Source of the DNA: an uncultured Lachnospiraceae bacterium
Lineage (GTDB): Bacteria; Bacillota; Clostridia; Lachnospirales; Lachnospiraceae
NCBI GenBank assembly: GCA_947173495.1
Contig: CAMWFQ010000005.1
Span: 62,001-126,000 of the forward strand
Length of the DNA stretch: 64,000 nt
Reading direction: 5' to 3'
Program-made: the position numbers and the translations under genes
Notes under the pieces: generated by a model
The model's input: only the letters and a program-made list of their open reading frames with translations
Database searches by the model: none
What the model was told of the DNA's origin: nothing
Part shown: positions 1 through 49,091 of the stretch, in pieces
Numbering within the stretch: the stretch's first letter is position 1
Layout: each line of letters opens with the position of its first letter

Positions 1-24
1 AGTCAGGCAGCTTTTTGCAGTATA

Positions 25-72
25 CAGGCCTGTAAAGGGAAGTTTGCCGCAGAAGCAGCATGCGGGCCGCCC
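25..72 (-). repeat. Degenerate copy 1 of the dispersed hairpin repeat (module B only)
   Basis: caggcctgtaaagggaagtttgccgcagaagcagcatgcgggccgc closely matches caggcccgcataaggaaatttgctgctaacgcagcatgcgggccgc at 19031-19076; preceded by a T-run (ctttttgcag). Confidence 0.75.
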
Positions 73-96
73 GTGGGCATAAAAAAGGAACAGCAT

Positions 97-2331
97 ATGA
101 AAAAAGTGGAATTGCTGGCTCCGGCAGGAAATTATACAGCCCTGGAAGGAGCTATAAACGCTGGCGCGGATGCGATATATCTTGGAGGCGAACAATATGG
201 CGCCCGCGCCTATGCAGATAATTTTACACAGGATGAAATTTGTGCGGGGATCCGCATGGCGCATGTATTCGGAAGGAAGATTTATTTAACCGTTAACACC
301 CTGGTCAAGGAAGAAGAGCTCCGGAGACTTCCGGCTTTTCTGCAGCCTCTTTATGAGGCCGGGCTGGATGGGGTAATCCTCCAGGATCTGGGTGCCTTGC
401 GCTGTATCAGATCATATTTCCCGGGTCTGAAGCTTCATGCAAGTACTCAGATGACACTGACAGGAAAGGAAGGCGTGTCGTTTGTAAAAAAAGAAGGGAT
501 CTGCAGGATTGTCCCGGCCAGGGAGCTTTCGCTGGAAGAGCTGAAAGAGCTGAAAAAAGAAACGGGAGTGGAAGTCGAGGCATTTATTCACGGAGCTATG
601 TGCTATTGTTATTCGGGACAATGTCTGTTCAGCAGTATTCTTGGAGGACGAAGCGGCAACAGGGGAAGATGCGCGCAGCCCTGCCGTCTGCCTTATGAGG
701 CAGGAAAGGGAAGACAGCAGTACCTTTTGAGCATGCGGGATATGTGCACGATTCATTTGATTCCGGAGCTGATCGATGCGGGGATTGACTCCTTCAAAAT
801 TGAGGGAAGAATGAAAAATCCTGCCTATGGGGCGGGGGTAACCGCCGTTTATCGTAAATATATTGATCTTTATTATCAGGATAAAGATCATTATCAGGTT
901 GACAGACAGGATCTGAAAGTGCTTGAATCTTTATATATCAGAAGTGAGATCGGGGAGGGATATTATCATGATGCAAACGGAAAAAAGATGATAAGTCTTT
1001 CTTCTCCGGCTTATTCCCCTACAGAGGAAGCTCTGCTGTCTTCCATTCGGGAAAAATATATGGATAAAAAGCCCGGAATAGATGGAGTGGCCAGGCTCAC
1101 GCTTAAGGAAGAAGAGCCGGCGGAGCTTTTGCTGCAGAGCGGAGATACGACTGTCATATGCAGGGGAGACCAGGTACAAAAAGCTGTGAAACAACCACTG
1201 ACGCGGGAAAAAGTGAAAGAGCAGCTTCAAAAGACCGGAAACAGCCTGATCAAGATTCGCCGGTCAGAGATCCATATGACAGAGGGACTGTTTTTGCCGC
1301 TGAAGTCTGTAAATGAACTGCGGAGAGCCGCCGTTGCGGCTATGGAGGATGCCCTGATTTCCCGGAATGGGCTGCAGTATGAGAGCAGAAGGATTTTGGC
1401 GGATGGGACGGAGAAGATAGGGACGTTTTCCCCTGCTGCTGTAAAACGGGCACAGGAGGATGCGAAGAAGTCTCAAGGACGGCAGATTCATGTGTCTGTC
1501 CGGACGACGGAGCAGTTGGAGGCGGCGTTGGAGGCAAAGGTGAGCAGGATCTATCTGGATTACAGCTTTTTTGAGAGAGGGACGCCCGAATCCCTCAAAC
1601 ATTTTGGAGAAAGAGCTGTGAATCAGAACACAGCATTTTATATTGCCGCACCTTATATTGTAAGAAAAAAGGATTGGAATTATCTGGAGAAGATCGTAAA
1701 GCTTTTCAGGGAAGAAAAGATAAGCGGCGTCCTGGTACGGAATCTGGAGAGCTTTGGATTTCTGGAAAAAGAACTCCCTGCCCAAAAACTTGTGCTGGAT
1801 GCCAATTTGTATATCTGGAACAGTCAGGCGCTTATGTTTTGGGAGGGACGGGCGGGAGAGTTTTATCTTCCGCTGGAATGCAATGCCGGAGAATGGAGAG
1901 GAATTTTGGCGTCCTGCCACGGAAGTACAATGCAGGCCTCTGCAGTGATTTATGGCAGGCTTCCCATGATGATCACTGCAAACTGTCTGAAAAAAACTAT
2001 GGACAGGTGTGATGGAAAGCCGGAGGTTACACAGCTCAAAGACAGATACAAAAAACAATTTCCTGTTTATAATGACTGTTTATGCTGTTATAATATAATC
2101 TATAATAGTCTGCCTTTATCCCTTCACAGTTTTGCTGCCAAAGAAAGCAGTCAGGCTGTTAATTTCCGGATTGACCTTACGGTGGAAGATCAGAAAGAGG
2201 CCCTCAGAGTGATTCTGTATTTTAAGGAATTGTCGGGACGGTTTGTCCCGAAAGGAAGAGAAGAGGGAGAAAATGTCCCCTGTCCAATAAAAGAATACAC
2301 CACGGGACATTATAAAAGAGGAGTAGAATAG
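97..2331 (+). CDS. U32 family peptidase (DUF3656-type)
   Basis: MKKVELLAPAGNYTALEGAINAGADAIYLGG N-terminus and RSGNRGRCAQPCRLPY motif; ATG at 97 has an SD (aaagga), the GTG at 73 lies in repeat-derived sequence. Confidence 0.9.
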   Translation: MKKVELLAPAGNYTALEGAINAGADAIYLGGEQYGARAYADNFTQDEICAGIRMAHVFGRKIYLTVNTLVKEEELRRLPAFLQPLYEAGLDGVILQDLGALRCIRSYFPGLKLHASTQMTLTGKEGVSFVKKEGICRIVPARELSLEELKELKKETGVEVEAFIHGAMCYCYSGQCLFSSILGGRSGNRGRCAQPCRLPYEAGKGRQQYLLSMRDMCTIHLIPELIDAGIDSFKIEGRMKNPAYGAGVTAVYRKYIDLYYQDKDHYQVDRQDLKVLESLYIRSEIGEGYYHDANGKKMISLSSPAYSPTEEALLSSIREKYMDKKPGIDGVARLTLKEEEPAELLLQSGDTTVICRGDQVQKAVKQPLTREKVKEQLQKTGNSLIKIRRSEIHMTEGLFLPLKSVNELRRAAVAAMEDALISRNGLQYESRRILADGTEKIGTFSPAAVKRAQEDAKKSQGRQIHVSVRTTEQLEAALEAKVSRIYLDYSFFERGTPESLKHFGERAVNQNTAFYIAAPYIVRKKDWNYLEKIVKLFREEKISGVLVRNLESFGFLEKELPAQKLVLDANLYIWNSQALMFWEGRAGEFYLPLECNAGEWRGILASCHGSTMQASAVIYGRLPMMITANCLKKTMDRCDGKPEVTQLKDRYKKQFPVYNDCLCCYNIIYNSLPLSLHSFAAKESSQAVNFRIDLTVEDQKEALRVILYFKELSGRFVPKGREEGENVPCPIKEYTTGHYKRGVE

Positions 2332-7023: not shown

Positions 7024-7161
7024 ATGAAAAAACTGATCGGATTTATTGCATTTTGGATTGCAGTTGGAATGCTGCTTATGCTTTTTCTTGCCCATCATTA
7101 TCTGATCGCGCTGATAATCATCGCGCTTTTATTGCTGATCGGATATAACTGCTATCTGTAA
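7024..7161 (+). CDS. Small hydrophobic protein (45 aa), not in supplied ORF track
   Basis: Own translation MKKLIGFIAFWIAVGMLLMLFLAHHYLIALIIIALLLLIGYNCYL; plausible two-TM peptide directly after gerW. Confidence 0.5.
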   Translation: MKKLIGFIAFWIAVGMLLMLFLAHHYLIALIIIALLLLIGYNCYL

Positions 7162-7180
7162 GAATAGTAAATAGATGAAT

Positions 7181-7268
7181 CGAGTAGGGAAGAGCTATCT
7201 TCCCCTACTCGTGCGCGGGGCGCACGTTGCGTCAGCAACAATTTCCTCTGTGCGCCCCTGCGCATAAA
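7181..7268 (+). repeat. Dispersed hairpin repeat copy 2 (full: module A + module B)
   Basis: cgagtagggaaga gcta tcttcccctactcg followed by gcgcggggcgcac-gttgcgtcagcaac-aatttcctct-gtgcgcccctgcgca. Confidence 0.9.
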
Positions 7269-7269
7269 A

Positions 7270-7298
7270 GAACCGGCCCATAAAAAGGCCGGCTTTTA
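7270..7298. terminator. Bidirectional intrinsic terminator between the gerW region and rpmB
   Basis: aaccggcc cataaaaa ggccggctttt. Confidence 0.75.
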
Positions 7299-7321
7299 TG
7301 AATGCTCTCAAACTATACCTG

Positions 7322-7507
7322 TTACGCTCTCTCAACTCTCCCGGATTTCAAACAATTCGTGCAAACGTGCATTCTCTTGGAAGCTCCGTTTATTTTACAT
7401 TTTACTCTCTTAATGTTTGAATGCCAAATTCTGTTAGATCTTCTATGAGAATGGCTTACGTTGTTTCCGAAATGAGCACCTTTACCGCAAATATCACATT
7501 TAGCCAT
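7322..7507 (-). CDS. rpmB: 50S ribosomal protein L28
   Basis: MAKCDICGKGAHFGNNVSHSHRRSNRIWHSNIKRVK. Confidence 0.95.
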   Translation of the reverse strand: MAKCDICGKGAHFGNNVSHSHRRSNRIWHSNIKRVKCKINGASKRMHVCTNCLKSGRVERA

Positions 7508-7678
7508 CATTACACCTCCCAACGATTCAAAATATTCATACACAACAGTTGTATAATATCAGAAATCCGGACAGATTACAAGCTTAAATTTAATAATTTT
7601 GCAGGAAATTCATGTTTCTTTTTTTTTGATTTACGGTTATAATATGATATATATGTTCAAAATATAAGGAGGCAGCCC

Positions 7679-8053
7679 ATGAAAAATTCTTCCAGGAAGG
7701 AAACTTCCATGAATACGCATATGGGGAACATCGCAATCTATAATGATGTGATCGCCCAGTACGCTGGCAGCGTTGCCATGGAGTGTTTTGGTGTAGTAGG
7801 AATGGCAGGCATTAACATGAAGGATGGTTTTGTCAAACTGCTTAAAAAAGAAAGCATGACCAGAGGCATTAATGTTTTCATTAAAAATAACAAGCTGACA
7901 ATTAATTTTCATGTGATTGTTGCATACGGTGTGAGCATTCTCGCAGTCACCGACAATCTGATCAGCAATGTAAAGTACAAAGTAGAGGAATTCACAGGAA
8001 TCGAAGTTGAAAAAATAAACATCTTTGTTGAAGGTGTTAGAGTGATTGATTAA
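7679..8053 (+). CDS. Asp23/Gls24 family envelope stress protein
   Basis: GNIAIYNDVIAQYAGSVAMECFGVVGMAG...VAYGVSILAVTDNLISNVKYKVEEFTGIEV. Confidence 0.9.
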   Translation: MKNSSRKETSMNTHMGNIAIYNDVIAQYAGSVAMECFGVVGMAGINMKDGFVKLLKKESMTRGINVFIKNNKLTINFHVIVAYGVSILAVTDNLISNVKYKVEEFTGIEVEKINIFVEGVRVID

Positions 8054-8065
8054 GGAGGACTTGCT

Positions 8066-9721
8066 GTGACTAATACAATCGACGCTAAGATACTTGCAAA
8101 GATGTTCTTAGCCGGTGCCAAAAATCTGGAATCCAAAAAGGAATGGATCAATGACTTAAATGTTTTCCCCGTGCCGGATGGTGATACGGGTACCAATATG
8201 ACCCTTACCATTATGTCGGCCGCTAAAGACGTTGCGGCTATGAAGGATATAGACATGTTATCCCTTTGCAAGGCAATTTCATCGGGTTCCCTGAGAGGCG
8301 CAAGAGGAAACTCCGGTGTAATCTTATCTCAGCTTTTTCGTGGATTTACCAAGTCCATCCGGGAAAAGGAGCAGCTGGATATACTGATGCTGGCGGATGC
8401 CTGTGATAAGGCAGTAGAGACAGCCTATAAGGCAGTGATGAAGCCCAAGGAGGGAACCATTCTGACGGTCGCAAAGGGGATATCCGTAAAAGCCCGGGAA
8501 CTGGCGGAGGAAGGCTGCAGCGATTTTACGGTTTTCTTTGATGAAGTGATCAGGTGCGGAGACGAGGTTTTAGAGCGGACGCCTGAAATGCTTCCGGTGT
8601 TGAAGCAGGCCGGAGTTGTTGACTCGGGCGGTCAAGGCCTGATGCAGGTGCTTAAGGGAGCCTATGACGCTTTTATGGGCAAGGAGCTGGACTTAAGTAT
8701 AAGCGAGGCGCCCCATACAGAGAGCGGGAAAGCGAATGCTCAGCCGGATATTGAGATTAAATATGGGTATTGCACGGAATTTATTATCATGCTGAACCGG
8801 AATTTCAATATCAAGACAGAAATGGATTTTAAGGAATATCTGGAATCTATCGGAGATTCTATTGTAGTAGTAGCGGATGATGACGTGGTAAAGGTACATG
8901 TACATACCAACGATCCGGGACTGGCGATCCAGAGAGCGCTCAGGTATGGTTCATTGTCCAATATGAAGATTGACAATATGCGGTTGGAGCATGAAGAAAA
9001 GCTGTTTAAAGAAAGTCAGGCGGCTTCTGAAAAGGCAGCTTCAGAAGAACCGGCTCCCCATAAGGAAGTAGGATTTATTGCAGTCTCGGCAGGTGATGGG
9101 ATTAATGAGATCTTTAAAGGGCTGGGCGTGGATCATATGATTCAGGGCGGACAGACCATGAATCCCAGTACGGAAGATATGCTCAATGCGATCGAAAAAG
9201 TAAACGCAGACACAGTGTTTATCCTTCCAAACAACAAAAATATCATTCTGGCCGCCAATCAGGCACAGATGATGGTAAAGGACAAGAAAATCGTAGTGGT
9301 ACCCACTAAGACAGTTCCTCAGGGAATTACGGCGATTATCAATTATGTTCCGGATCTGTCGGCGGAAGAAAATGAAGAAAATATGAAACAGGAAATCCAC
9401 AGGGTAAAGACTGGTCAGGTGACTTATGCTGTGAGGGATACCGTGATTGAAGACAAGGAGATCAAGCAGGGCGATTACATGGGGATCGGTGACAGCGGTA
9501 TTTTATCTATTGGCGGAGATGTGTCTGACGTGGCTTTCCGTATGGTGAAAGAGATGATGGACGAGCAGCTGGAGCTGATCAGTATCTATTATGGAGAAGA
9601 TATCACTGAGAACGATGCAGAGCAGCTGAGAGCGCAGATTGAGCGGGAATATCCATCCTGCGATATCGAACTGCAGTATGGCGGTCAGCCGATCTATTAT
9701 TATATTATATCAGCAGAATAA
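8066..9721 (+). CDS. DAK2 domain protein, fatty-acid kinase FakA/YloV family
   Basis: LNVFPVPDGDTGTNMTLT, GARGNSGVILSQLFRG; C-terminal DegV-like region. Confidence 0.9.
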   Translation: MTNTIDAKILAKMFLAGAKNLESKKEWINDLNVFPVPDGDTGTNMTLTIMSAAKDVAAMKDIDMLSLCKAISSGSLRGARGNSGVILSQLFRGFTKSIREKEQLDILMLADACDKAVETAYKAVMKPKEGTILTVAKGISVKARELAEEGCSDFTVFFDEVIRCGDEVLERTPEMLPVLKQAGVVDSGGQGLMQVLKGAYDAFMGKELDLSISEAPHTESGKANAQPDIEIKYGYCTEFIIMLNRNFNIKTEMDFKEYLESIGDSIVVVADDDVVKVHVHTNDPGLAIQRALRYGSLSNMKIDNMRLEHEEKLFKESQAASEKAASEEPAPHKEVGFIAVSAGDGINEIFKGLGVDHMIQGGQTMNPSTEDMLNAIEKVNADTVFILPNNKNIILAANQAQMMVKDKKIVVVPTKTVPQGITAIINYVPDLSAEENEENMKQEIHRVKTGQVTYAVRDTVIEDKEIKQGDYMGIGDSGILSIGGDVSDVAFRMVKEMMDEQLELISIYYGEDITENDAEQLRAQIEREYPSCDIELQYGGQPIYYYIISAE

Positions 9722-9730
9722 AAGCTGCAA

Positions 9731-9760
9731 AGCGGCAAATTTTATGCGGGCCTGCGCAAA
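9731..9760 (+). repeat. Truncated repeat remnant (3' half of module B)
   Basis: agcggcaaattttatgcgggcctgcgcaaa resembles gcagcaaacttccttttgcgggcctgcgcatta of copy 10. Confidence 0.65.
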
Positions 9761-9766
9761 AAAAAA

Positions 9767-9854
9767 CGAGTAGGGAAGAGCTATCTTCCCCTACTCGCGT
9801 GCGGGGCGCACGTTGCGTCAGCAATAACTTCATCTGTGCGCCCCTGCGCATAAA
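9767..9854 (+). repeat. Dispersed hairpin repeat copy 3 (full)
   Basis: Near-identical to copy 2: cgagtagggaagagctatcttcccctactcg then ggggcgcacgttgcgtcagcaataacttcatctgtgcgcccctgcgcat. Confidence 0.9.
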
Positions 9855-9858
9855 AAAT

Positions 9859-9946
9859 CAAGTAGGGAAGAGTTATCTTCCCCTGCTTGCCGCGCGCCCC
9901 ATGTGCCGCTTTAGCGGCATACTTCTTCTGCATGGGGCTGCGCATA
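9859..9946 (+). repeat. Dispersed hairpin repeat copy 4 (full, tandem with copy 3)
   Basis: caagtagggaagagttatcttcccctgcttg (paired change G-C to A-T in stem A); gccccatg-tgccgctttagcggca-tacttcttct-gcatggggc. Confidence 0.9.
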
Positions 9947-9974
9947 AAAAGGACGGAATGCCCGTCCTTTTTGC
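9946..9974. terminator. Intrinsic terminator
   Basis: aaaaaggacgg aatgc ccgtcctttttg. Confidence 0.75.
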
Positions 9975-10028
9975 GTGAATGGAAATGTAGAAATCATATC
10001 CAGTTGTTATAGTTATGAGGAATGCCAG

Positions 10029-12119
10029 ATGAAAGGTTCAGATGACATTATAACTTTAAAGGGAATCGGGGAAAAGACAGCAAAACTGTTTTACAGAATG
10101 GGAATCCACACCGTTCAGGAGATGTTGTTTTATTACCCAAGAGATTATCAGGCGTTTAAAGCGCCAGTGAAACTCGCGGAAGCAGGTGAGGAGACAGTCA
10201 CTCTGGAGCTGTTCCTGACAGGAGATTTTAAGTGGAAAAAAATAAAAAATCTCTCTGTCGGATCCGGATATGCCAGTGATGGCTCGGACAGGGTATCTAT
10301 CACCTATTTTAATACCCCATATCTGAAAAAAAGGCTTTCTGCGGGGAGCAGCTGGCTGTTTCGGGGAAAAGTCAGATCGGACAGGGGAAAATATCATATG
10401 GACCAGCCAAAGCTTTATACCTGGGAAGAATATGAGGAGCTCTCAGGGAAGCTTTGGCCGTGTTATGGTCTGACACAGGGGCTTACCAACCGAATGGTCA
10501 TAAAGGCGGTAGAACAGGTGCTGGCAGGCTTTGTGTATGGAGACACCTCCGATTCGTATTCGGAAAATGAGTTTTGGGAGATCCTTCCGGAGGAAGTAAT
10601 CAGAAAATATAATCTTATGTCCAGGAAGGAGGCATTTGGACAGATTCATTTTCCAAGGGACAGAGATACGCTCCGTGAGGCGCGCAGGAGGCTGGCGTTT
10701 GAGGAATTCTTTTTATTTCTGATCTGTGTCAGAAGAATGAAGGATTATAATGAGACACTTATGACAGATTATTTGATGATAGAGACCGCTTTTTGCAGCC
10801 GCCTGCTGGAGGCGCTCCCTTATCGTCTGACCAATGCCCAGCTTAATGCCTGGAAGGAGATTGTACAGGATCTGACCAGCGGCAGAAGCATGAACCGGTT
10901 AATTCAGGGGGATGTGGGATCGGGGAAAACAATACTGGCATTTCTGGCGCTTTTACTTACTGTAAGCAACGGGTTTCAGGGAGCGCTGATGGCACCTACA
11001 GAGATCCTTGCAGCGCAACATTTTGAAGCTCTCAGCAATATGAAAGTGCAATACAATCTTCCCTTTAAGCCGGTTTTGTTAACAGGTTCTCTTCAGACGG
11101 CGGCCAGAAAAGAAATTTACCGTGAAATAGAAGCGGGAGAAGCCAATGTGATCATAGGAACCCATGCATTGATTCAGGAAAAGGTCAATTATCAAAATCT
11201 GGCACTGGTTATTACCGATGAACAGCACAGGTTCGGTGTCCGGCAGAGAGAGAGCTTCTGTGAGAAAGGCGGAGGAGCGCATGTCCTGGTGATGAGTGCA
11301 ACGCCAATTCCCAGAACGCTGGCCATGATTCTCTATGGAGATATGCATTTGTCGGTGATCGATGAACTGCCGGCAGGACGGATTCCTGTCAAAAACTGTG
11401 TGGTGGGGACATCGTACCGTCCCAAAGCCTATGAGTTTATTGCCAGGGAAGTGAGAAAAGGAAACCAGGCTTATGTGATCTGCCCTATGGTGGAGGCGGG
11501 GGAAGAGGAAACAGCGCTGGAGAATGTGATAGACTATGGAGAAAAGCTCCGAAAGGAGCTGCCTGCGGATATTCACGTGGAGATCCTTCACGGAAAGATG
11601 AAGGCGGCGGAAAAGAAACGGATTATGGAAGCCTTTTCGTCAGGAAATGTCCATGTTCTGGTATCGACCACAGTGATAGAGGTAGGTATCAATGTGCCGG
11701 CGGCGACGGTGATGATGATTGAAAATGCGGAAAGGTTCGGCCTTGCCCAGCTTCATCAGCTGAGAGGGAGGATCGGCAGGGGAAATGAGCAGTCTTACTG
11801 TATTTTTATCAGCGGAACGGATAATGAACAGTCGCTGGAGAGACTGAAAATACTGAACCGGTCCAACGATGGGTTTTATATTGCCCGGGAGGATCTGAAA
11901 CTGAGAGGCCCGGGAGATCTGTTCGGGATCCGGCAGAGCGGCGTTATGGACTTCCGGATCGCAGATGTCTATCAGGATGCAGAAATCCTGGAAAAAGCCA
12001 GTGACGCGGTGAATGACATTCTGGCGGCGGATCAGGCGCTGAATGCGGAAAAATACGCAGGACTGAAGCGGTACCTGAATGAAAATGCTGGAAATTTTGT
12101 TGACTTTAGAACCATCTGA
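10029..12119 (+). CDS. recG: ATP-dependent DNA helicase RecG
   Basis: IQGDVGSGKTILAFLALL, APTEILAAQH, TDEQHRFGVRQRE, MSATPIPRTLA, QLRGRIGRG. Confidence 0.95.
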   Translation: MKGSDDIITLKGIGEKTAKLFYRMGIHTVQEMLFYYPRDYQAFKAPVKLAEAGEETVTLELFLTGDFKWKKIKNLSVGSGYASDGSDRVSITYFNTPYLKKRLSAGSSWLFRGKVRSDRGKYHMDQPKLYTWEEYEELSGKLWPCYGLTQGLTNRMVIKAVEQVLAGFVYGDTSDSYSENEFWEILPEEVIRKYNLMSRKEAFGQIHFPRDRDTLREARRRLAFEEFFLFLICVRRMKDYNETLMTDYLMIETAFCSRLLEALPYRLTNAQLNAWKEIVQDLTSGRSMNRLIQGDVGSGKTILAFLALLLTVSNGFQGALMAPTEILAAQHFEALSNMKVQYNLPFKPVLLTGSLQTAARKEIYREIEAGEANVIIGTHALIQEKVNYQNLALVITDEQHRFGVRQRESFCEKGGGAHVLVMSATPIPRTLAMILYGDMHLSVIDELPAGRIPVKNCVVGTSYRPKAYEFIAREVRKGNQAYVICPMVEAGEEETALENVIDYGEKLRKELPADIHVEILHGKMKAAEKKRIMEAFSSGNVHVLVSTTVIEVGINVPAATVMMIENAERFGLAQLHQLRGRIGRGNEQSYCIFISGTDNEQSLERLKILNRSNDGFYIAREDLKLRGPGDLFGIRQSGVMDFRIADVYQDAEILEKASDAVNDILAADQALNAEKYAGLKRYLNENAGNFVDFRTI

Positions 12120-18357: not shown

Positions 18358-18981
18358 ATGAGCAGCAGAATCGAACAGTTAATCGACGAGATTGAGGAGT
18401 ATATTGATGGTTGCAAATATCAGCCTCTTTCCAATACTAAGATTATTGTAAATAAAGAGGAGATCGATGAACTTCTCAGGGAGCTGCGTATGAAGACCCC
18501 TGATGAGATCAAACGGTATCAGAAGATCATCAGCAATAAGGAGGCAATCTTGAGTGATGCCCGCGCCAAGGCGGAGGCTTTGATTAATGATGCCACACTG
18601 CATACCAATGAACTGATTAATGAGCATGAGATTATGCAGCAGGCTTACGCTCAGGCCAATGAGGTGGTGAAGATGGCTACCCAGCAGGCTCAGGATATTC
18701 TTGATAATGCTACGATAGAGGCCAATAATATGCGTATGGCGGCCATGCAGTATACAGATGATATTCTTGCCAATATTGATCAACTTATCAATCAGGCAAT
18801 GCGGACCACAACAGAGCATTATGAGAGCTTTTTCGGGGCGCTGAATCATTACAGCGATGTGGTCAATGCCAACAGAGTGGAGCTGAATCCTCCGGAAGCG
18901 GATGAGTATACAGGCGGAGAGGATCAAAAATCTTCGGAAGGATCCGGAGGCGGTGAGAATCTGAATCTTGATATGATCTGA
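18358..18981 (+). CDS. Coiled-coil protein (vacuolar ATPase subunit H-like/DivIVA-like)
   Basis: Alanine/glutamine-rich helical repeats (ARAKAEALINDA..., ANEVVKMATQQAQDILDNA). Confidence 0.65.
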   Translation: MSSRIEQLIDEIEEYIDGCKYQPLSNTKIIVNKEEIDELLRELRMKTPDEIKRYQKIISNKEAILSDARAKAEALINDATLHTNELINEHEIMQQAYAQANEVVKMATQQAQDILDNATIEANNMRMAAMQYTDDILANIDQLINQAMRTTTEHYESFFGALNHYSDVVNANRVELNPPEADEYTGGEDQKSSEGSGGGENLNLDMI

Positions 18982-18983
18982 TA

Positions 18984-19025
18984 GGATCTGGCTTACATTC
19001 ATTAACTGTAAGCCGGATCTTTTTT
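18984..19025 (+). terminator. Intrinsic terminator
   Basis: ggatctggcttaca ttcattaac tgtaagccggatcttttt. Confidence 0.85.
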
Positions 19026-19113
19026 ATGCGCAGGCCCGCATAAGGAAATTTGCTGCTAACGCAGCATGCGGGCCGCACGGCGAGTAGGGGAAGATAAATC
19101 TTCCCTCCTCGAT
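19026..19113 (-). repeat. Dispersed hairpin repeat copy 5 (full)
   Basis: atgcgcaggcccgcat-aaggaaatt-tgctgctaacgcagc-atgcgggccgcacgg then cgagtaggggaagataaatcttccctcctcg. Confidence 0.9.
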
Positions 19114-19114
19114 T

Positions 19115-19199
19115 GTGCAGGGGCACCCAGAGGAAAAATGTCAGCAGAAGCTGACGGGTGCCCGGGCGCGAGTAGGGGAGAAAAGCATCCCCTACTCGA
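19115..19199 (-). repeat. Dispersed hairpin repeat copy 6 (full, tandem)
   Basis: gtgcaggggcaccc-agaggaaaaat-gtcagcagaagctgac-gggtgcccgggcgcgagtaggggagaaaagcatcccctactcg. Confidence 0.9.
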
Positions 19200-19200
19200 T

Positions 19201-19283
19201 TGCGCAGGCCCGCATAAGGAAATTTGTTGCTTACGCAGCATGCGCCCCGCGCGCGAGCAGGGAGAAAGCCTTCCCTGCTCGAT
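19201..19283 (-). repeat. Dispersed hairpin repeat copy 7 (full, tandem; mixed outer-stem arms)
   Basis: tgcgcaggcccgcataaggaaatttgttgcttacgcagcatgcgccccgcgcgcgagcagggagaaagccttccctgctcg. Confidence 0.9.
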
Positions 19284-19295
19284 TTCCCTGCCTGA

Positions 19296-38977: not shown

Positions 38978-38988
38978 GAATGTTTGAC

Positions 38989-39062
38989 TGCGCAGGGACG
39001 CAAAAAATCCTGTTTACGCGGATGCGCCCTGCGCGGAAAGCAGAGAAACCTCTCTACTCGAT
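38989..39062 (-). repeat. Dispersed hairpin repeat copy 8 (degenerate)
   Basis: tgcgcagggacgcaaaaaatcctgtttacgcggatgcgccctgcgcgg then agcagagaaacctctctactcgat. Confidence 0.75.
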
Positions 39063-39278
39063 TTCCCTGGTCTGTTCGGTACCGCCGGCATACATATAAA
39101 AAGAAAGCAGATAAAGTCCGCTGATGCCTACCAGGGCATATACGATTCTGGCGATCCATGACATATTGCCAAAGATAAAAGATACAAGGTCAAAGGAAAA
39201 GAAACCAATCAATCCCCAGTTGACCGCACCTATGATAGCGACTGTAAGTGCAATACAGTCAAGGTATTTATGATTCAT
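39054..39278 (-). CDS. DUF378-like small membrane protein
   Basis: MNHKYLDCIALTVAIIGAVNWGLIGFFSFDLVSFIFG...RIVYALVGISGLYLL. Confidence 0.85.
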   Translation of the reverse strand: MNHKYLDCIALTVAIIGAVNWGLIGFFSFDLVSFIFGNMSWIARIVYALVGISGLYLLSFYMYAGGTEQTREIE

Positions 39279-40260: not shown

Positions 40261-40290
40261 GCAACTTATGTTCGTATTTATGAGAACAAT

Positions 40291-40378
40291 CGAGTAGGGA
40301 AGGCTTTTTCTCCCTACTCGCCGTGCCGGGCACCCGTCAGCGCTGCTGACATATTTCATTGGGATGCCCGTGTGCATA
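40291..40378 (+). repeat. Dispersed hairpin repeat copy 9 (full)
   Basis: cgagtagggaaggctttttctccctactcg then gccgggcaccc-gtcagcgctgctgac-atatttcatt-gggatgcccgtgtgcat. Confidence 0.9.
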
Positions 40379-40422
40379 AGAAGCGCCCGGGCAAAAGAAA
40401 AGCCCGGCAGGGAGGACACAAG

Positions 40423-47314: not shown

Positions 47315-48418
47315 TTACTCACAATCCTCCACATAATGAATTTCCGAAATGGCATTTAAAATATCGTCATCTGTCACGGTTCTGTCGATCAGAGCCTTTC
47401 CTACTTTTTTGAGAAGAACAAATTTAATACTGCCATTCTCCATTTTTTTATCTGACTTGGTCAGACGCAGGATTTCTTCGGGATCGATATCTTCAAGAGA
47501 GATGGGAAGATTAAACGGCACAAACATATCCCTGATTTCATAATACTCTTCCATGGAAAGCCATTCATGCTCCCATGAAATGAATGCGGCGGCCACGGCT
47601 CCTAACGCAACACATTCTCCGTGGGTAAGCGTGAAATTTTTATATTTTTCAATGGCATGTCCTATTGTATGTCCGAAGTTAAGAAGAGCACGGTCTCCTT
47701 TTTCAGTAGGATCTTTTTCAACTACCAGCTTTTTGATCTTACAGCTGCGCTCTACCATTTCAAGAAGGGTATCTACGTCTCTGTCACAGATTTCATACAT
47801 ATGTTCAAGAAGCCATTCATAAAAAAGACCGTCTTTGATTAATCCGTGTTTCATAACTTCAGCAAATCCGCTGAAAAATTGACGGTCATCCAATGTCTTC
47901 AGTACACTGATATTCATGTAAACCAGTCTGGGCATATAAAAGGCGCCCACCATATTTTTATAGCCTTCGAAATCAACGCCGGTCTTTCCGCCGATACTTG
48001 AGTCAGCCTGTGCAAGAAGGGTCGTTGGAATCTGTATAAAATCAATACCACGCAGGTAGGTAGCTGCTGCAAAACCGGTAAGATCACCTGTAACGCCGCC
48101 GCCTAAGGCAATCAGCAAATCCTTTCGGTCAAATTTTTCATGGATTAAAAGCGTATAGATCTCTCTCACTGTGGACAGTGTTTTACTCTCCTCTCCTGCC
48201 TGAAAAGAAAATAAAATAATTTTCTTACATTTACCTTCCAGAAGGTTTTTTAGCTCTTCTCCATAAAGAGAGCGGACATGGGAATCCGTTATAATACAGA
48301 CTTTCCTTTCTTCAATGCCGAGCGTATCAAGCTCCCTGGAAAGTTCTTCAAAATCTGTGGAAAATACAATATCATAACAGGGTTTCTTTTCATATAAGAT
48401 CGTTAATCGACTGTCCAT
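47315..48418 (-). CDS. aroB: 3-dehydroquinate synthase
   Basis: ALGGGVTGDLTGFAAATYLRGIDFIQIPTTLLAQADSSIGGKTGVDF, NFGHTIGHAIE. Confidence 0.96.
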   Translation of the reverse strand: MDSRLTILYEKKPCYDIVFSTDFEELSRELDTLGIEERKVCIITDSHVRSLYGEELKNLLEGKCKKIILFSFQAGEESKTLSTVREIYTLLIHEKFDRKDLLIALGGGVTGDLTGFAAATYLRGIDFIQIPTTLLAQADSSIGGKTGVDFEGYKNMVGAFYMPRLVYMNISVLKTLDDRQFFSGFAEVMKHGLIKDGLFYEWLLEHMYEICDRDVDTLLEMVERSCKIKKLVVEKDPTEKGDRALLNFGHTIGHAIEKYKNFTLTHGECVALGAVAAAFISWEHEWLSMEEYYEIRDMFVPFNLPISLEDIDPEEILRLTKSDKKMENGSIKFVLLKKVGKALIDRTVTDDDILNAISEIHYVEDCE

Positions 48419-48452
48419 TTTTGATTCATATCCTTTTCGTAATATTTTGAAT

Positions 48453-48538
48453 CGAGTAGGGAAGATTTATCTTCCACTACTCGCCGCGCGGCCCGCATGC
48501 TGCTTCAGCAGCAAACTTCCTTTTGCGGGCCTGCGCAT
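48453..48538 (+). repeat. Dispersed hairpin repeat copy 10 (full)
   Basis: cgagtagggaagatttatcttccactactcg then gcgcggcccgca-tgctgcttcagcagca-aacttccttt-tgcgggcctgcgca. Confidence 0.9.
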
Positions 48539-48545
48539 TAAATTT

Positions 48546-48572
48546 AAAGCTTTCTGCTCCGGCAGAAAGCTT
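48546..48572 (-). terminator. Intrinsic terminator of sepF
   Basis: Minus strand aagctttctgc cgga gcagaaagcttt aaattt. Confidence 0.75.
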
Positions 48573-48590: not shown

Positions 48591-49091
48591 TTAAATACTG
48601 TTATTGATGGGAACATCAAAAGATCCGGACAAAATTTCCTGGAAATCACCTGAAATATCGACAACAGCCGGTGTAATAATAAAGATATAGTTGGAAATCT
48701 TCTGCAGATTTCCACTGATTGCATAACAGGAACCGGATGTGAAATCAATAATACGCTGGGCAATATCTACATCTAATCCTTCCAGATTAAGTACCACTGT
48801 TCTGTTGGCGAGTAAGGTTTCTGTGATTTCTCTTGCATCTTCAATAGAAGTAGGTTTGATCACGCAGACTTCCATGCCGGTATTGCCTTTTTTGGTCTGC
48901 CGCATTGGTGTTACCTTGCTGGGAGCTGCCTTTCGTACAGTCCTCTCTTCTTCAACTGCAGATTCTTCTCTTATTACGGGTTGTTTTTTAGGCTTTTCTT
49001 CTACGGGTTCATCATAATATTCGTCGTCATAGAAATCATCATCTTCTTCATTCAGTCTCATGTAGTTGAGAAACTTATCCATTACACTCAT
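48591..49091 (-). CDS. sepF: Cell division protein SepF
   Basis: MSVMDKFLNYMRLNEEDDDFYDDEY..., RIIDFTSGSCYAISGNLQKISNYIFIITP. Confidence 0.95.
   Translation of the reverse strand: MSVMDKFLNYMRLNEEDDDFYDDEYYDEPVEEKPKKQPVIREESAVEEERTVRKAAPSKVTPMRQTKKGNTGMEVCVIKPTSIEDAREITETLLANRTVVLNLEGLDVDIAQRIIDFTSGSCYAISGNLQKISNYIFIITPAVVDISGDFQEILSGSFDVPINNSI

Follow-up and report, generated by a model that had tools for sequence, protein, structure and literature searches.

We report a family of small structured interspersed repeats that falls into no named family tested, and whose copies follow a rule absent from the earlier note on this DNA: they lie in a fixed orientation directly downstream of intrinsic terminators and are stacked there in head-to-tail, polarised arrays. 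We consider it fairly probable that the repeat is a mobile hairpin element, non-autonomous and copied in trans, that has been directed to terminators again and again in one orientation; the remark of the earlier note that any mobility would be in trans is then presumably right. The family has a precise landing rule, and it is abundant in common gut bacteria, apparently without an earlier description.

The window, i.e., the whole stretch of 64,000 nucleotides that was analysed, holds 8 full units and at least three remnants, where about nine full copies plus remnants had been counted before; the remnants stand and the full count is corrected. The junctions between tandem copies, at which CTGCGCA is followed by ATCGAG, define the unit as ATCGAG...CTGCGCA, with a length of about 86-87 nt. 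A repeated unit is indeed present at 7181-7268, as had been noted, with its length of about 88 nt to be shortened, because the trailing TAAAA/ATAAAA is mostly flank, the complement of the T-tract of the neighbouring terminator. The unit is composed of two adjacent hairpins, hairpin A of 31 nt and hairpin B, about 52 nt long and with an internal loop on one side only, and on the target strand it is spelled GCGCAGG-B-GCGCG-A-CTCGATT. The one-sided loop that was described as conserved exists, but it is less constant than described, taking the forms AATTTCATCT, AATTTCCTTA, ACTTCATCT and others. Similarly, modules A and B are real, but the free modularity read into them is weak: the covariance-model search of the genome gave few B-only matches, the two modules being almost always together as a single unit. 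The two ends of the unit, ATCGAG and CTGCGCA, do not form an inverted-repeat pair, so that it lacks the terminal inverted repeats of a MITE. The near-invariant AT at the 5' end is retained in copies whose 3' side differs, and it thus belongs to the unit, which speaks against reading the AT at both ends as a 2-bp target duplication.

Beyond the window the repeat is dispersed genome-wide, as the earlier note supposed, with 65 BLAST matches to unit 1 in the 4.58-Mb genome and at least 150 matches to a covariance model built from 36 copies. That note did not recognise the family, and indeed no existing Rfam family matches it: none reached its gathering score in the window, and a permissive Rfam search of 7100-10100 gave chance-level matches only. 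Searches of phage, plasmid and viral collections gave no match. Literature searches for the repeat in Lachnospiraceae, covering main texts, gave nothing relevant, although it may have an unnamed entry in a microbiome RNA-motif catalogue (e.g., PMC8040213). The copies in the window and their neighbours are as follows.

16-98, minus strand: remnant.
7179..7264 (7178-7269 in the count of full units), plus strand: unit 1 (ATCGAG...CTGCGCA), the genome's best covariance-model match with 112 bits; also from the fold.
7181-7211, plus strand: hairpin A of unit 1, from the fold.
7212-7264, plus strand: hairpin B of unit 1, from the fold.
7265..7297, minus strand: AAAAGAACCGGCC...GGCCGGCTTTTAT, an intrinsic terminator of bidirectional form that touches unit 1; from sequence and fold.
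7322-7543, read on the minus strand: small gene (ORF) ended by the terminator at 7265..7297, which we take by eye to be L28-like.
About 9722..9760, plus strand: decayed module-B remnant upstream of unit 2, from sequence.
9764..9855, plus strand: unit 2, an array member, 105 bits.
9856..9949, plus strand: unit 3, terminator-proximal, outer stem GCCCCATG/CATGGGGC, 91 bits.
9946..9972, unstranded: terminator hairpin AAAAAGGACGGAATGCCCGTCCTTTTT beside unit 3, its A/T tracts symmetrical; from sequence.
18984..19026, plus strand: intrinsic terminator (hairpin + TTTTTTAT) of the gene at 18358-18981, from sequence and fold.
19022..19114, minus strand: terminator-proximal unit of a three-unit array, type GGCCCGCA/TGCGGGCC, 102 bits.
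About 19110..19200, minus strand: second unit of the same array, type GGGCACCC/GGGTGCCC, from alignment.
About 19197..19284, minus strand: distal unit of the same array, outer stem partly broken (GGGGCGCAT vs ATGCGGGCC), 80 bits.
38984..39063, minus strand: decayed copy, 36 bits and from sequence.
40288..40381, plus strand: full unit of the GGGCACCC type, 70 bits.
47315..48418, minus strand: aroB (DHQ synthase), the next gene downstream of sepF.
48450..48542, plus strand: full unit between sepF and aroB, 96 bits.
48547..48572, minus strand: sepF terminator hairpin abutting that unit; relatives without the element also have a terminator here.
48591..49091, minus strand: sepF (PF04472), whose terminator carries the element.

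The usual order at the sites is gene stop, terminator hairpin, TTTTTAT and then GCGCAGG-hairpin B-hairpin A-CTCGATT, which means that the CTGCGCA end of the unit or array abuts the T-tract of an intrinsic terminator on the opposite strand. The clearest case in the window is the three-unit array that starts straight after the T-tract of the terminator at 18984-19026. A strong hairpin, defined by a score of at least 12, is present beside the CTGCGCA end in 59% of cases in this genome (99 sites) and in 72% of cases in other Lachnospiraceae (82 sites), compared with 1-2% in shuffles and 0-4% at 150 nt away; with the score used, the hairpin is weak or absent at about 20-40% of the sites. The gap between the unit and the hairpin is A-rich (70-72% A) and T makes up 30-33% beyond the hairpin, implying a terminator that is read on the opposite strand. 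At 75 of the 94 callable sites the adjacent gene has its end facing the element, and among the approximately 19 sites without a called gene ending towards it, some have small genes that the ORF caller missed (e.g., 7322-7543).

It could be argued that insertion is near-random and that only the harmless copies behind terminators survive, the arrays then growing by unequal recombination. The places behind terminators are neutral, and some arrays do have identical neighbours (C2:298923-299184), both of which agree with this explanation. However, it predicts neither the fixed orientation nor the contact with the hairpin, which lies mostly 0-11 nt from the hairpin base, and many arrays mix stem types instead of duplicating one, as seen in the array 19022-19284 and the pair 9764-9949 in the window. 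We regard such neutral survival as unlikely.

The polarity of the head-to-tail arrays is seen in both sequence and folding. In 24 of 26 arrays (Wilcoxon p = 1.6e-5) it is the terminator-proximal unit that stands nearer to copies elsewhere, and the folding energies of the proximal and distal units in the 26 arrays of this genome are -48.6 vs -39.4 kcal/mol, the distal units being decayed; in the small sample from other Lachnospiraceae, 7 of 8 arrays have the better-folding unit at the proximal place. It is noted that the models used to find the sites came largely from terminal units, a bias towards proximal units, but this bias is unlikely to make up the whole polarity effect because of the nearest-neighbour identity and because, among about 100 listed hits, only 4 had a further, unlisted unit after them. 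As judged from column frequencies, a CCTGYGC-like end left by an older unit stands before about two-thirds of the terminal units. We infer that the polarity reflects the age of the units. At a contig end of this genome (G000:C2:298836-299184), four tandem units follow one another almost unchanged with a period of 87 nt, which is probably the result of a recent tandem duplication.

The stems covary, as the earlier note stated, and they do so beyond every control, both in the genome and in other Lachnospiraceae, when judged by shuffles and slid registers. For the 36 genome copies, 96.8% of the cells are paired vs 90.5% in the shuffled ones, and 14 pairs have double changes vs 6.6, with 0 of 500 shuffles as high. 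For 87 distinct copies from other Lachnospiraceae, the corresponding values are 97.0% vs 84.2% in the control and 21 double-change pairs vs 12.6, together with 315 double-change cells vs 89 (again 0 of 500); such counts are inflated by subfamily ancestry, yet several pairs in the wider set have 4-6 standard pair types. The compensatory changes in hairpins A and B are matched by no shuffle and no slid register. One of them, seen in copies from other Lachnospiraceae, turns the GTT/AAC of the inner hairpin into GCT/AGC, so that there is no fixed recombination core, and an integron attC-like site is ruled out. As to the selection on structure that had been suggested, the pairing of the stems is kept, but its RNA-level character does not follow: G.U wobbles number 96 on the strand of the earlier note vs 72 on the opposite strand, a ratio too even for the functional strand to be named, and the structure may be maintained in DNA with the same likelihood as in RNA.

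The repeat is present in many Lachnospiraceae records (mouse, rumen and other guts) among the matches listed, and within the genus the copy number ranges from 0 to at least 67. Units identical over 93 bp lie between unrelated genes, at loci that differ in their flanks (L035, L036), and the near-identity of copies extends to the loops. Two orthologous places were compared. Between sepF and aroB most relatives have the terminator without the element, while G000 has one copy directly behind the terminator; behind a gene that we take by eye to be phosphofructokinase-like, the terminator is likewise present and the element absent in most relatives, and G000 again has the element. These data bear on the proposal that the element has a selected function at gene ends (processing of transcript ends, backup termination or insulation of the gene that follows) and that copies are retained at the places where they are useful. 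The covarying stems, the strict location at gene ends and the fixed orientation would be expected on that proposal. It is difficult to reconcile, however, with the patchy copy number within one genus, with orthologous housekeeping-gene terminators doing without the element, with the decay of the distal units, with the lack of a clear strand preference of the wobble pairs and with a near-identity that reaches into the loops, and we consider it quite unlikely. The copies would rather have been made by insertion, i.e., by transposition of the element, than by gene conversion, which could nevertheless homogenise them.

A second repeat, AATAAGCTGRCTCGCGAAGCGYGGCAGCGTTTGTTAC, is found in relatives. 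It forms one hairpin, its units are about 37-39 nt long, and it lies in tandem or singly behind the sepF terminator of G005, G001 and G012. The matches number at least 40 in G005, at least 32 in G001, at least 17 in G012 and at least 7 in G021, with none in G000, and most of the copies inspected by eye come after a T-rich tract (L287-L306, L259). In G005 the phosphofructokinase terminator is followed by a stack of a related form, ACATAAGGATGTCTGGCGGAGCCTGTCATCCGTTGTTTG (L329), and there a reverse-complement copy of the second family lies on the opposite side of the terminator.

In the mobile-element model, the element would be copied in trans and placed directly downstream of the T-tract of an intrinsic terminator in a single orientation. 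The target, i.e., the hairpin and the T-tract, would be left intact and remain beside the newest copy, so that head-to-tail arrays would grow by repeated hits, with the youngest unit in contact with the terminator and the older ones pushed away and decaying. The stems would probably stay paired because the mobilising enzyme recognises the element in its folded state, be it single-stranded DNA, a cruciform or RNA, and a dedicated enzyme may recognise both the two hairpins and the terminator. No matching target duplication was seen in the set of fresh sites, which still included array members, and searches of the high-copy draft genomes for Y1 transposase, RVT_1 and domain V gave no mobilising gene for the repeat. 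If insertion is driven by an enzyme, this enzyme has terminators as its targets, avoids genes and promoters and works in one orientation; the order of insertion would be preserved in the arrays, which also place strong hairpins between the ends of many genes and the promoter that follows. A wider proposal, possible but doubtful, is that Lachnospiraceae possess a machinery able to recognise intrinsic terminators and to write cassettes of hairpins beside them, the newest at the terminator, and that at least two unrelated families use this machinery or equivalents of it. If this proposal is true, terminators are landing sites for time-ordered arrays, like the CRISPR leader or the integron attI site.

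As to the mover, the earlier note pointed to REP/BIME elements, which would imply mobilisation by a RAYT or another IS200-type Y1 transposase. The small imperfect extragenic hairpins, many in number, the tandem arrangement and the patchy copy number are all traits that the repeat has. The GTAG-like tetranucleotide 5' of each hairpin is lacking before hairpin B, and GTAG occurs only inside stem A, within CGAGTAG, where it varies to GCAG. Moreover, PF01797 had 0 matches in the drafts G000, G021 and G013 (97%, 94% and 59% complete), all with many copies, in a search that was positive in 5 control genomes and several low-copy relatives, and the Y1 genes found in relatives are in no case shown flanked by the element. 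The link to a Y1 transposase is thus disfavoured, and we judge it very unlikely.

Another candidate is a retro-mobilised element borrowing group IIC-like intron machinery, which would account for the same target site and the fixed orientation, as group IIC introns insert at intrinsic terminators (PMC4424553). By contrast, the unit has no domain V, and searches of the draft G021, with at least 67 copies, gave nothing for RVT_1 and, for domain V, one match below threshold. A single group II intron was found in G000 (L152:2045-4585, on G000:C8); it encodes a protein of 577 aa and interrupts a DNA polymerase III alpha-like coding sequence, presumably dnaE, named by eye. This machinery is probably not the mover, and we judge its involvement very unlikely. 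It is also noted that a reverse-transcriptase domain in a 935-aa open frame is present at L311 (G000:C5:212140-212760) and L312 (G013) and absent from G021.

Compared with known systems, the repeat resembles REP/BIME elements with their RAYT (TnpA_REP) in its short extragenic imperfect hairpins, its hundreds of copies, its tandem groups and its probable mobilisation in trans, and differs from them in its two-hairpin 87-nt unit, anchored one way to a T-tract, and in having no Y1 gene in three high-copy genomes. The BOX, RUP and SPRITE elements of Streptococcus pneumoniae are interspersed and highly base-paired and are thought to be non-autonomous mobile elements (PMC3049150). The present repeat is likewise interspersed and highly base-paired; unlike BOX it has no A-B-C modularity with a variable number of B, the boxA-boxB(n)-boxC order being lacking in a layout where whole units repeat, and whereas SPRITE itself resembles a terminator, the present repeat sits after the host terminator. 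The second repeat of the relatives, about 37-39 nt long with a single hairpin, has no evident sequence similarity to the 87-nt element and is absent from G000, but the two are alike in lying directly downstream of terminator T-tracts, in being tandem and in using the same sepF-aroB terminator and others. Finally, compared with group IIC introns, the repeat has only 87 nt and no ribozyme domains, and no reverse transcriptase was found in at least one high-copy draft, but it shares with these introns and their derivatives the insertion at intrinsic terminators in a fixed orientation.
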